64,000 bases of DNA from an uncultured Bacteroidota bacterium (GTDB taxonomy: Bacteria; Bacteroidota; Bacteroidia; Chitinophagales; Chitinophagaceae), in NCBI GenBank assembly GCA_903906365.1, contig CAIVKC010000061.1:38147-102146 (forward strand), given 5' to 3'. Position 1 is the stretch's first letter. Each line of letters begins with the position of its first letter. The notes under the pieces were generated by a model that saw only the letters and a list, made by a program, of their open reading frames with translations, did not search any database and had not been told where the DNA came from. Both the position numbers and the translations under genes were made by a program. Below are positions 1,284-49,197 of the stretch, one piece after another.

Positions 1284-3926
1284 TCAGGACAATTGGGCCA
1301 GACTTTCTTCAATGACCTGAATCTTGGCTTCTGCATCGGCTTTCTTTTTTTGCTCCAGGGCAAGCACGTCGGGCTTGGCGTTTTGGACAAAACGTTCGTT
1401 GTTTAGTTTGTTGTTCACCGGGACCAGAAATCCTTTCAGGTAGGCCAATTCCTTTTGAAGGGCCTGCCGCTGGCTTTCCACGTTAACCGGCGCTTCCGAC
1501 CTGATATAAATCTGATCATTACCGCAAAGTAAGCCAATGGAATGGTCTATTGGCTGGCTGATATAGGAGAGTTGGGATGCGTTGACCTGTTTGCAAAGGA
1601 TTTTTTCGATTTCCCGGTATTGGGACGGGTTAGATGTCTGTACAAAAAGATCGATGGTTTCTTTGGGTTTCAACTGATGCTTGTTGCGGGCATCCCGGAT
1701 GGCTGTGATGACCTCTTTGAGCAGTTCTCCCCTTTGGAGGAGCGGGTCTTCTGGTGAGGGAAACTGGCTGTTAAACTGGGATACGCACAAATCATCCTGC
1801 CTGTCCTGGGAAAGGTGATACAACTCTTCGGTAATGAAAGGCATAAAGGGGTGAAGGAGCTGCAGCAAACGGTCAAAAAATTCCAGTGTTTTTTTGTAAA
1901 CCATACCATCTACCGGCTGTTCAAATCCCGGTTTGATCCATTCCAGGTACCAGCTGCAGAAATCATCCCAGATCAGGGAATAAATGGTCTTGAGGGCCTC
2001 GCTGAGTTTAAAATTTTTCAGCTGTTCCTCCACCTCCCGGCTAACCTGGTTTATCCTGTTTTCAAACCATTGCAGGGCAAAACGGTCCTGATCCCCCTCC
2101 GCTATGGGCTGTACCCTTTCCTCCCACATCCTGATCAGCTTCAGGGCATTCCATAATTTATTATTGAAATTCCTGCCCTGTTCCAGGGAGCTTTCATCAA
2201 AAAGCAGGTCATTTCCGGCCGGCGAGGAAATCATGATTCCAAAGCGGACGGCATCCGCCCCGTACTTATCAATAAGTTCCAGCAGATCAGGGGAATTTCC
2301 CAAGCTCTTGCTCATTTTCCTTCCCTGTTTATCACGCACCATTCCGGTGAAATAGACATCGCTGAATGGTTTTTCTCCCCGGAAGGCATAACCTGCCATG
2401 ATCATCCTGGCAACCCAGAAAAAAATGATGTCCTGGCCGGTAACAAGTACTGATGTAGGGTAGTAATAATTGATATCGGCATTGGCGGGTTCCGTAATCC
2501 CACGGAAAACCTCCATCGGCCAGAGCCAGGAAGAAAACCAGGTATCCAGCACATCCTGGTCCTGCGTAAGGGCTTGGCTTCCATCTGCCAACTCAGGGGC
2601 AGGCTGTTTTGCGGACCACTGCGCCAGGGCATCCTGGTAGGTTTCAGCTACATAAACATTACCCTCCTTGTCATACCAGGCGGGAATCTGCTGCCCCCAC
2701 CATAACTGACGGCTGATGCACCAGTCCTTTACATTTTCCAGCCAATATCTGTAAGTAGCCAGGAATTTTTCCCCGGGATGGATCTTGATATCGCCACCCA
2801 CCACTGCCTGCAGCGCCGGCTCTCCCAACTCCTTCATTCGTACAAACCACTGGGTGGAAATCCTGGGTTCAATGACCGTATCCGGATTGCGCTGGCTGAA
2901 CCCCAGTCGGGTCGTATATTCCTCTTCCTTGAGCAGCAACCCTTTCTCGCGGAGTGCATCCACGACTTTACGGCGGGCTTCAAATCGGTCCAGGCCTACA
3001 AAAACCTGGGCCTTATCAGAGAGGGTTCCATCCTCGTTGAGGGTATCAATGATCTCCAGGCCATGTTTGAGACCCAGGTTATAGTCGTTGATGTCGTGGG
3101 CAGGGGTTACCTTCAGGGCTCCGGTACCGAAAGCAGGATCCACGTATTGGTCAAAGATGATGTCCACGGCCCGGTTTACCAGGGGCACAATGACTTTTTT
3201 TCCTTTCAGATGGGCATATCGTTCATCGGAGGGATGGACGCAGAGGGCAGAATCCCCCATGATGGTTTCCGGACGTTGGGTGGCCACGGAAATGAATTCA
3301 TCAGATCCGGAGACCTGGTATTTTACATAGTACAATGTACCCTGCAGGTCCTTATATTCCACTTCCTCATCGCTCAGGGCAGTTCTCGCCTTGGGGTCCC
3401 AGTTAATCATCCTGGCTCCCCTGTAAATCAATCCCCTCTGGAATAGCTCTACAAAGACTTTCAGGACGGCCTTGTAATAATGGTCATCCATGGTAAAGCT
3501 TACCCGGCTCCAGTCCACACTACAGCCCAGTTTCTCGATCTGGCTGTAAATGATATTACCATATTTCTCCTTCCATTCAAAGGCATATTTCAGAAACTCC
3601 TCCCTGGTAAGATCCGCTTTGCGGATTCCTTTTTCTTTTTCAAGCATCTGCACCACCTTGGATTCTGTGGCAATGGACGCATGGTCGCTTCCGGGTACCC
3701 AGCAGGCATTATATCCGCTCATGCGGGCCCTCCTGACCAGGATATCCTGAACGGTCTCATTGAGGGTATGGCCCATATGCAGGACCCCTGTGACATTGGG
3801 CGGGGGAATGACGACCGTATAAGCCTTTCTGGTGTCCGGGGTGCTGCGGAAATATCCCTTGTCCATCCAATGTTTGTACCACCGATCCTCTACCGACGCC
3901 GGGTTGTAATTCTTACTCAATTCCAT
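1284..3926 (-). CDS. valS: Valyl-tRNA synthetase
   Basis: 880 aa; PPPNVTGVLHMGHTLN (HIGH), GRKMSKSLGNSPD (KMSKS), ARMIMAGYAF, C-terminal coiled coil. Confidence 0.98.
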   Translation of the reverse strand: MELSKNYNPASVEDRWYKHWMDKGYFRSTPDTRKAYTVVIPPPNVTGVLHMGHTLNETVQDILVRRARMSGYNACWVPGSDHASIATESKVVQMLEKEKGIRKADLTREEFLKYAFEWKEKYGNIIYSQIEKLGCSVDWSRVSFTMDDHYYKAVLKVFVELFQRGLIYRGARMINWDPKARTALSDEEVEYKDLQGTLYYVKYQVSGSDEFISVATQRPETIMGDSALCVHPSDERYAHLKGKKVIVPLVNRAVDIIFDQYVDPAFGTGALKVTPAHDINDYNLGLKHGLEIIDTLNEDGTLSDKAQVFVGLDRFEARRKVVDALREKGLLLKEEEYTTRLGFSQRNPDTVIEPRISTQWFVRMKELGEPALQAVVGGDIKIHPGEKFLATYRYWLENVKDWCISRQLWWGQQIPAWYDKEGNVYVAETYQDALAQWSAKQPAPELADGSQALTQDQDVLDTWFSSWLWPMEVFRGITEPANADINYYYPTSVLVTGQDIIFFWVARMIMAGYAFRGEKPFSDVYFTGMVRDKQGRKMSKSLGNSPDLLELIDKYGADAVRFGIMISSPAGNDLLFDESSLEQGRNFNNKLWNALKLIRMWEERVQPIAEGDQDRFALQWFENRINQVSREVEEQLKNFKLSEALKTIYSLIWDDFCSWYLEWIKPGFEQPVDGMVYKKTLEFFDRLLQLLHPFMPFITEELYHLSQDRQDDLCVSQFNSQFPSPEDPLLQRGELLKEVITAIRDARNKHQLKPKETIDLFVQTSNPSQYREIEKILCKQVNASQLSYISQPIDHSIGLLCGNDQIYIRSEAPVNVESQRQALQKELAYLKGFLVPVNNKLNNERFVQNAKPDVLALEQKKKADAEAKIQVIEESLAQLS

Positions 3927-4021
3927 AGCAGAAGCTTAAAATATTGCTTGTTTTTATTGGATGGCAAAGGTAAGAATTGTTAACCAAGCTTTTGGTAGTA
4001 AGGAAGGGAAGGAAAATAAAT

Positions 4022-4043
4022 AAAAAATCCCCTGTAACAGGGG
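4022..4043 (-). terminator. Intrinsic terminator for the 37-aa ORF at 4137-4250
   Basis: CCCCTG-TAA-CAGGGG stem with an A6 run on + (T6 on -) on the downstream side. Confidence 0.75.
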
Positions 4044-4136
4044 ACTCATATAATTTGATGAAAAAAAATACCCAGCCCTTCTGCTATTCAAATCAAGCAG
4101 GGCCATAATATCCTTTTTTCAAGTAAACGCTTGTTC

Positions 4137-4250
4137 TCAGGCAAACCAGTAGAGGTAGGACAGGAACATTACCAAGCCCAGAAATCCAACTGCGAGTAAT
4201 GCTGTTTGCAGGTTTTCGCCGAGGTGAAGCGAATGCATCATTTTTTTCAT
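4137..4250 (-). CDS. 37-aa single-TM microprotein (copy A), below the supplied ORF length threshold
   Basis: MKKMMHSLHLGENLQTALLAVGFLGLVMFLSYLYWFA*; same length, N-terminus and architecture as 4521-4634; CTAAAATT exactly 7 nt before ATG; terminator downstream. Confidence 0.65.
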   Translation of the reverse strand: MKKMMHSLHLGENLQTALLAVGFLGLVMFLSYLYWFA

Positions 4251-4467
4251 ACTGAACAATTTTAGAGGTGAAACCATGTTGATAAAAAATGGAGTTCAAA
4301 GGGGACGATTGATAATCAACAATTTAACGGGTTTCTTCTACGATCTTGGATGAGATCCATTCAACAGATAAGGAAGGGGCTAAAGCAATAATTCTAATAT
4401 AAATATACAAATATTTTTCCCGAAAGCGCCAAATCTTTCCGGAAAAATCTTTTTTTCTGGATAAAAA

Positions 4468-4494
4468 CGAAAACTCCGGCTTGAGGGCCGGAGT
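4468..4494 (-). terminator. Intrinsic terminator for the 37-aa ORF at 4521-4634
   Basis: ACTCCGGC/GCCGGAGT 8-bp stem followed on the minus strand by TTTTCGTTTTT. Confidence 0.75.
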
Positions 4495-4520
4495 CAAATA
4501 GCTTATTAAAACCCAAGGTT

Positions 4521-4634
4521 TTAGGACAGGGTAAATACATACGCAAAAAGCAAAATGGCGCAGAAGTACAGTACGGCTGTTATGGCAGCTAATGCTGTGT
4601 GTTCCCCTGGCTGGGTGGTGTCCATTTTTTTCAT
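4521..4634 (-). CDS. 37-aa single-TM microprotein (copy B)
   Basis: MKKMDTTQPGEHTALAAITAVLYFCAILLFAYVFTLS*; in frame with the supplied 81-aa ORF but starting at the ATG at 4634, 7 nt after a CTAAAATT motif shared with copy A. Confidence 0.65.
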   Translation of the reverse strand: MKKMDTTQPGEHTALAAITAVLYFCAILLFAYVFTLS

Positions 4635-4662
4635 GGCATTGAATTTTAGGGTTAATAAATTG

Positions 4663-4678
4663 CAGGAACAGGTTCCTG
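4663..4678. promoter_or_regulatory. Perfect inverted repeat upstream of microprotein copy B (operator-like)
   Basis: CAGGAAC-AG-GTTCCTG, 7-bp arms with 2-nt spacer, 28 nt upstream of the copy B start codon. Confidence 0.35.
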
Positions 4679-4802
4679 TTGGAATTGCTTTCAGAGGGGA
4701 TGAGCGGATTGGACGTACATTCAGGTGGCCTTTAGGCCTTCTGAATAATAGGATGTTAACCACCAAATCTCTATATCTTTATTGTCCTATTAATGGATTC
4801 AT

Positions 4803-6221
4803 TTGCTTTACGCTATCGTCGATATAGAGACCACGGGGGGTTATGCAGCTAATAACGCCATAACGGAAGTGGCTATTGTGCTTCATAATGGTAAACATGA
4901 ATTAAAAAGGTTTCAAACCCTTGTTAACCCGCATATTTCCATTCCCAGGTACGTTCAATCGCTGACGGGAATAACCGACGATATGGTGGCTGATGCACCC
5001 GGCTTCCAGGAACTGGCCCCCACCATACATGAATGGCTCAGGGAAGCTGTTTTTGTGGCCCACAATGTGAATTTCGATTACTCTTTTTTAAAGCACCAGC
5101 TAAAAGCCGCCGGATATGAGCTCAACTGCAAAAAATTATGTACCGTCAGGCTGGGCCGCAAGGTTTTCCCCGGTCTGCCGAGTTACAGCCTTGGCAAACT
5201 CTGCAGGGAACTAGGCATTGAGGTTTCCAACCGGCATCGGGCAGGAGGTGATGCAGATGCAACAGTCCGTTTGTTCGAAATGATCCTGGAAAAGGATACC
5301 CAGGGACATATGCAGGCGATGCTGAAAGGGAGGAACAAGGAACAATACGTACCCATCCATTTGCCGGTGGAACAGATCGAGGCACTGCCCATGGTAGCCG
5401 GAGTATATTATTTCCATGACCAAAAGGGAAAGGTCATTTATGTCGGAAAGGCCAACAACATTCGCCAGCGTGTCTGCAGCCATTTTTCCAACAACAAGCC
5501 CGGTAAACAAAAACAGGAGTTTTTGAGGAATATCTATTCGGTTTCTCACCAAAGAACCGGAACCGAACTGATGGCATTTTTGCTGGAATGTGTTGAAATC
5601 AAGAAGCTCTGGCCCCTGTATAACCGCAGCCTTAAAAAATTTGAGCAGGCCTATGGGATGTATGTATATACAGACCGTAACGGATACCTCCGGCTGATCA
5701 TTGAAAAAAGGAAGAAGCAACTCCGGCCAATCTATACCTTTTCCTGGCTGATGGAGGGACAAAACATGCTCAGAAAGCTGGTTCGCAGCTTTGGATTATG
5801 CCCTAAACTATGTTTCATCCAAAAGGGAGATGGCCCCTGTGAAGGGGTCCGTGAGAAATATTGTACTGGCGCCTGTGAAAAACAGGAAGGACCGGGGCCT
5901 TATAATGAGCGTGTGGAGCGGGCCCTGGAATCCCTTCACCGGGAGCTGCCTACCTTTACCCTTATTGACCAGGGGCGCCACGCCGAAGAGCAAAGCTGTA
6001 TCCTGGTGGAGGAAGGCCGTTTTTATGGGATGGGATACCTTCCGGCAGACGCCGTGATCCCGGGCTTTACTGGGCTTAAGGAGTATATTCAGCCATATCC
6101 CGAAAACGATTATATGCGGGGACTGATTTATCAGTATGCTGCCCGCTGGCCTTCCAAAAAAATTACCCTGCAGCCCGATAACCTCAGTGCAGAGCCAAAA
6201 ATCAATAAATTCCTTTCATGA
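4803..6221 (+). CDS. DnaQ-like 3'-5' exonuclease fused to a GIY-YIG (UvrC/Cho-type) nuclease domain
   Basis: N-terminal YAIVDIETTG, AHNVNFDYSFL and HRAGGDADAT exonuclease motifs; then MVAGVYYFHDQKGKVIYVGKANNIRQRV (GIY-YIG). Confidence 0.92.
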   Translation: MLYAIVDIETTGGYAANNAITEVAIVLHNGKHELKRFQTLVNPHISIPRYVQSLTGITDDMVADAPGFQELAPTIHEWLREAVFVAHNVNFDYSFLKHQLKAAGYELNCKKLCTVRLGRKVFPGLPSYSLGKLCRELGIEVSNRHRAGGDADATVRLFEMILEKDTQGHMQAMLKGRNKEQYVPIHLPVEQIEALPMVAGVYYFHDQKGKVIYVGKANNIRQRVCSHFSNNKPGKQKQEFLRNIYSVSHQRTGTELMAFLLECVEIKKLWPLYNRSLKKFEQAYGMYVYTDRNGYLRLIIEKRKKQLRPIYTFSWLMEGQNMLRKLVRSFGLCPKLCFIQKGDGPCEGVREKYCTGACEKQEGPGPYNERVERALESLHRELPTFTLIDQGRHAEEQSCILVEEGRFYGMGYLPADAVIPGFTGLKEYIQPYPENDYMRGLIYQYAARWPSKKITLQPDNLSAEPKINKFLS

Positions 6222-48090: not shown

Positions 48091-48228
48091 TCCATTGGGT
48101 ATGTAAGATATAAGAGCTGTCTCCGCAAGAGGCAGCTTTTGTTGTTTACCGCCTGGTTTTATGCGGTTTGAATTTGAGTACATGCATCATTTTTTTCACC
48201 TAAAATTGACCTGATCAAGGTTAAACAT

Positions 48229-49197
48229 ATGGGAATCTTCGATAAGATATTTGGAAAAAAAGAAAAGGAAAGCCTTGACCAGGGATTACAAAAGACCAAA
48301 GAGGGTTTTTTGTCTAAGATTGCCAAAGCCATTGCCGGAAAAAGCACCGTGGATGAAGAAGTACTGGATTCCCTGGAGGAGGCACTGGTAGGCGCGGATG
48401 TGGGTATAGAAACCACGGTCAGTATCATCGAGCGAATTGAAAAGCGGGTGGCCCGGGATAAATACATGCACACTGCTGACCTCAACAGAATCCTGCAGGA
48501 AGAAATGGAAGCCATGCTGACGGAGGCACCTGAGAAATCATACCGGAATTTTGAAATTCCCTCCGGGGCAAAACCCTATGTGATCCTGGTGGTGGGTGTC
48601 AATGGGGTGGGGAAAACCACTACCATCGGTAAACTGGCCTACAATTTCAAAAAAGCAGGCAAGTCGGTACTGCTCGGGGCAGCGGATACCTTCCGTGCCG
48701 CGGCTGTCGATCAGCTCACCATCTGGAGTGACAGGGTGGGGGTACCCATCGTGAAACAGGGCATGGGGGCCGACCCCGGCGCGGTGGCCTTTGATACCGT
48801 TCAAAGCGGAATATCCCGGGGGGTGGATGTGGTAATTATTGACACGGCAGGCCGCCTGCACAATAAGGCCTACCTGATGGAAGAACTGAGTAAAATCAAC
48901 CGGGTTATAAAAAAACTCATGCCGGAGGCGCCACAGGAAGTGCTGCTGGTGCTGGACGGCTCCACTGGCCAGAATGCCCTGGAGCAGGCCAGGCAGTTTA
49001 CGGCTGCCACCCAGGTGACCGCCCTGGCAATTACCAAACTGGACGGAACGGCCAAAGGGGGCGTGGTCATAGCGATCGCCAACCAGTTCCATATTCCGGT
49101 AAAATTCATCGGGGTAGGAGAGCAAATGGAAAACCTGCTTGTTTTTGATAAACATGAATTTGTGGAAAGTCTCTTCAGCCTGGAGAAAAAACCCTAG
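48229..49197 (+). CDS. ftsY: Signal recognition particle receptor FtsY
   Basis: GVNGVGKTTTIGKLAYNFKKAGKSVLLGAADTFRAAAVDQL; VIIDTAGRLHNKAYLMEEL; TKLDGTAKGGVVIAI. Confidence 0.98.
   Translation: MGIFDKIFGKKEKESLDQGLQKTKEGFLSKIAKAIAGKSTVDEEVLDSLEEALVGADVGIETTVSIIERIEKRVARDKYMHTADLNRILQEEMEAMLTEAPEKSYRNFEIPSGAKPYVILVVGVNGVGKTTTIGKLAYNFKKAGKSVLLGAADTFRAAAVDQLTIWSDRVGVPIVKQGMGADPGAVAFDTVQSGISRGVDVVIIDTAGRLHNKAYLMEELSKINRVIKKLMPEAPQEVLLVLDGSTGQNALEQARQFTAATQVTALAITKLDGTAKGGVVIAIANQFHIPVKFIGVGEQMENLLVFDKHEFVESLFSLEKKP

Follow-up and report, generated by a model that had tools for sequence, protein, structure and literature searches.

Two small genes, here called A and B, are, as judged by comparison among genomes, kept adjacent upstream of valS by strong selection across many soil Chitinophagaceae. 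They would encode related, vertically inherited, single-pass microproteins of the inner membrane with an accessory or regulatory role, a predicted function that we consider the probable one, if by no wide measure. Both lie in the window (the whole 64,000-nt stretch of DNA that was analysed), which comes from a host genome of 4.66 Mb that is 99.9% complete. The first-pass annotation had described two minus-strand reading frames of 37 residues here, and translation returned both peptides letter for letter (Table 1). The shared length holds for the pair in the window (37/37) and is not strict beyond it, with orthologues of ~35–43 residues. What this means more broadly is that, even in well-sampled soil Bacteroidota, entire families of membrane microproteins under selection still lack family models. 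A and B also offer a testable pair, as they combine a fixed locus, a clear start and clear terminators with a conserved noncoding leader.

Table 1. Features of the A/B locus, in window coordinates and in the order B, A, valS
Feature	Position	Strand	Sequence	Remarks
DnaQ-type exonuclease (RNase_T) + GIY-YIG gene	4803..6221	+		Divergent; Pfam on locus homologue; divergent in 29/29 assembled loci
B leader block (putative)	4688..4705	-	CTCATCCCCTCTGAAAGC	Resembles CCC.TTTGAA block of A leader
Initiation element before B	4642..4649	-	CTAAAATT	AAAA at -13..-10; generic
Gene B	4521..4634	-	MKKMDTTQPGEHTALAAITAVLYFCAILLFAYVFTLS	37 codons + stop; orthologues, dN/dS, AF2 helix
Intrinsic terminator after B	4472..4495	-	GACTCCGGC...GCCGGAGTT + T run	Terminator-like site in 18/29 B orthologues
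Putative -7 promoter box of A	4400..4407	-	TATATTTA	About -150; one mismatch to TAnnTTTG in own genome
A leader core	4262..4343	-	GAAACC..GTTGATT..CCCCTTTGAA..ATCAAC..GGTTTCACC	Possible hairpin; model R1 match E 1.7e-10
Initiation element before A	4258..4265	-	CTAAAATT	AAAA at -13..-10; generic
Gene A	4137..4250	-	MKKMMHSLHLGENLQTALLAVGFLGLVMFLSYLYWFA	37 codons + stop; orthologues, dN/dS, AF2 helix
Intrinsic terminator after A	4025..4047	-	GAGTCCCCTGTTACAGGGGATTT + T run	Terminator-like site in 28/31 A orthologues
Promoter box of valS	3965..3972	-	TACCTTTG	3' of A terminator
valS	1284..3926	-		First gene 3' of A, same strand; same place in 31/31 loci

Three checks had been set beforehand, namely conservation of the peptides in related genomes, a codon-position bias among their substitutions and synteny with valS. 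Among 60 sampled relatives, A was found in 31, of which 30 were Puia-like (counting the window's own genome) and one belonged to another genus; B was found in 29, all Puia-like. The nearest orthologues belong to Puia-like Chitinophagaceae, with Puia dinghuensis among the named relatives. Differences between the Puia-like orthologues, counted at codon positions 1/2/3, were 27/14/60% for A and 35/16/49% for B, a third-position excess in both genes. Median dN/dS was ~0.12 for A and ~0.22 for B, ratios that are rough as synonymous sites are near saturation, though clear in direction. This pattern of substitution marks A and B as real protein-coding genes under purifying selection, and we infer their expression from selection together with the signals described below.

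The synteny check gave valS directly 3' of A in 31/31 loci. The gene order was invariant, with the dnaQ/GIY-YIG gene pointing away from B, A and valS wherever it was assembled (29/29), and the same order was also seen in other genera. Comparison of the loci thus places A and B as vertically inherited in Chitinophagaceae, fixed between a dnaQ-like gene and valS. In a wider sample of the family, A occurred in several further genera, mostly but not always with B upstream, and diverged A-like reading frames lay directly upstream of valS in four genomes (G081, G193, G095 and G085). In a search of 388 genomes of the class, no strong match fell outside Chitinophagaceae. Several Chitinophagaceae genera have no recognisable A at the valS locus, which indicates that A is dispensable. 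Within the same genus, A was absent from G003, G005 and G016; this is best read as incompleteness, since a valS match was likewise absent there.

AlphaFold2 predicted one helix in each peptide (residues 6–36 of A, mean pLDDT 84; residues 9–36 of B, mean pLDDT 83), and the hydrophobic stretch reaches the C-terminus in all orthologues. The best reading of these models is a single-pass inner-membrane microprotein with a short, positively charged N-terminus on the inside and a helix running to the C-terminus, the localisation being predicted. Some helix residues are invariant or nearly so (L30, F23 and V27 in A; Y23, F24 and Y32 in B), which suggests specific packing. A and B are probably paralogous. 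Profile comparison (hhalign) gave a probability of 91% and E 1e-6, a score that the single-TM composition of short helices can inflate, and phmmer cross-matches reached only ~E 0.005 and weaker. No Pfam or NCBIfam family matched the window's peptides, PHROG, PADLOC and PDB gave no match for either, and a literature search returned no report of such a gene near valS. A and B belong to no named family and were probably overlooked because the genes are tiny.

The claim that each gene has its own terminator was strengthened, in that the two strongest minus-strand terminator-like sites between 3000 and 6000 sit 3' of A and B. Stem sequences of the A terminators vary between orthologues. For promoters we used the consensus box TAnnTTTG (PMC7366714), which was found at -135 to about -195 before A in most orthologues. 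Unlike A and valS, B showed no such box within 300 nt upstream in any of its orthologues, so the B promoter would be of another kind or unrecognised. As a side observation, the region upstream of B (4635–4802, minus strand) may be read by another sigma factor.

The first-pass annotation had also pointed to matching leaders, with CTAAAATT exactly 7 nt upstream of both ATGs. The spacing and the identity of the octamer before the window's A and B were as described. Its accompanying caution, that a TAAAATT-like leader may be partly generic for the phylum, proved apt: AAAA at -13 to -10 falls on a known phylum-wide determinant of initiation, which A-12 and A-13 stimulate in Flavobacterium johnsoniae (PMC6847099). 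TAAA is enriched about twofold before other ORFs of the window, and B orthologues usually carry TAAATCC, not TAAAATT. Considering all of this, the octamer common to A and B is mainly generic. Elsewhere in the window, TCACCTAAAATT (48200–48228, plus strand), which precedes an ORF at 48229, looks like the last part of the A leader and is probably a generic initiation element.

A longer part of the A leader is conserved. Measured against shuffled alignments, the alignment score was 6.5 sd higher for positions -90..-1 and 8.4 sd higher for the coding region; the excess was 1.2 sd over the adjoining 90 nt farther upstream and 0.6 sd on the 3' side. The conserved blocks were GAAACC, CCCCTTTGAA and GGTTTCACC. 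A covariance model of this leader (R1) found a convincing match only at the A leader, once per genome, and nothing convincing outside the valS locus; other genera are without it, and their A leaders differ. By these alignments and searches, the 90-nt leader is almost as conserved as the A coding region and unique to the valS locus in Puia-like genomes. In its outer stem, GAAACC/GGTTTC, pairing reaches 93%, but the complementary arms are invariant and so yield no covariation signal. The inner helix has modest support (permutation p 0.035), and RNAalifold returned no consensus structure for the leader alignment. With hairpin evidence this modest, RNA structure in the leader is plausible, not shown, and the conserved stretch could instead be a DNA site.

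The CCC.TTTGAA block was also considered as the mark of a regulon in 19 genomes. Of 12 such sites inspected away from the A/B loci, many fall in long open frames, and none was followed by a small membrane gene that could be recognised. Rfam gave sub-threshold matches only, among them FopS, a Bacteroides sRNA family (32 bits vs a gathering score of 56). The FopS match lies at 4618–4694 on the plus strand, antisense to the B leader, and is probably due to chance. In other genera (loci L087–L100), a different conserved leader stands directly before the A start (CCTGTGAAAACCGATT..GATCGTACTACG..CGTAG) and may be an inverted repeat or a promoter of the ECF type.

The function that we favour is that of accessory or regulatory subunits: A and B would each pack a single helix onto a larger membrane protein, a role proposed because most characterised bacterial microproteins of the same build work in this way. 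AcrZ, MgtS and KdpF are characterised bacterial small membrane proteins of the regulatory type. A and B resemble them in having fewer than ~50 residues, one helix, a short charged N-terminus and their own transcription unit or leader; they differ in being two related tandem copies with a conserved leader, in having no Pfam, NCBIfam or PDB match and in having no linked partner. A would be transcribed from a housekeeping-type promoter of its own, with a leader of roughly 140 nt, the conserved last 90 nt of which probably tune its translation. A, B and the A-like copies found elsewhere may serve related but distinct partners. No partner gene was found linked to A and B: their neighbours valS and dnaQ are housekeeping genes, and the A-like copies lie at other loci. 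The peptides may also act on the membrane with no protein partner. More speculatively, A and B could be the first members of a new microprotein family under an unusual layer of control. This doubtful extension would comprise a lineage-specific, structured 5' leader RNA of A (or a second regulatory DNA element) nearly as conserved as the protein, a CCC.TTTGAA block common to the B leader, and joint expression of two helices that act together on an envelope complex.

Two other functions had been suggested by the first-pass annotation, and neither fared well. As type I toxin-like peptides, A and B would be kept silent by a long structured leader that blocks their translation, and an antisense or trans RNA would serve as the antitoxin. 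They do share with the type I toxin class (Hok, Ldr, TisB, Fst) a short, hydrophobic, single-helix build, tandem copies and a long leader, here roughly 140 nt, conserved and perhaps able to fold, given the permutation value of its inner helix. However, no conserved antisense TAnnTTTG box (CAAAnnTA) was found over A or B in a search that covered that promoter type, and both genes are kept at one chromosomal locus across genera under the strong purifying selection described above (dN/dS 0.12 and 0.22). Neither peptide had a Pfam match above noise or any PADLOC or PHROG match, and the searches made of viral contigs and plasmids turned up no copies. Given the selection, the vertical inheritance, the missing antisense box and the lack of mobile copies found, we regard a type I toxin as unlikely. 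The other suggestion, small subunits of a respiratory complex like CcoQ or CydX, agrees with the size and single-TM build of the peptides and with a marginal COX7a match of one B member (E 0.056). Unlike CcoQ and CydX, A and B lie outside any oxidase operon, are unlinked to oxidase genes and have no PDB sequence match. We compared the occurrence of A with that of cbb3 (FixO) and bd (CydA). Genomes that lack full-length FixO (G028, G136 and G230) retain A, as do genomes that lack CydA (G000, G011, G021 and G028). An obligate cbb3 or bd subunit is therefore not supported, and a respiratory subunit of either kind seems quite improbable.

In every locus (31/31), A immediately precedes valS on its strand, with a terminator between the two, which could also suggest a leader peptide, or peptides, controlling valS by attenuation. 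Against this, selection acts at the amino-acid level, Val codons are few and form no run (A has two, not adjacent), and A-like copies exist away from valS. Attenuation is thus very improbable. Furthermore, valS has its own TAnnTTTG box 16–54 nt before its start in 27/30 genomes; this ruled out a valS leader peptide as a candidate and makes A a separate unit.

Many Puia-like genomes carry the more distant A-like copies away from valS, frequently with a GH92 gene on one side and a dus gene on the other. In nine such loci (L060–L063, L065, L069, L071, L072 and L075), the A-like gene lies 3' of a GH92 gene and often adjoins dus, near position 5000 of the locus or, in L062, at 2262. These GH92-linked genes carry a different conserved short promoter/leader.
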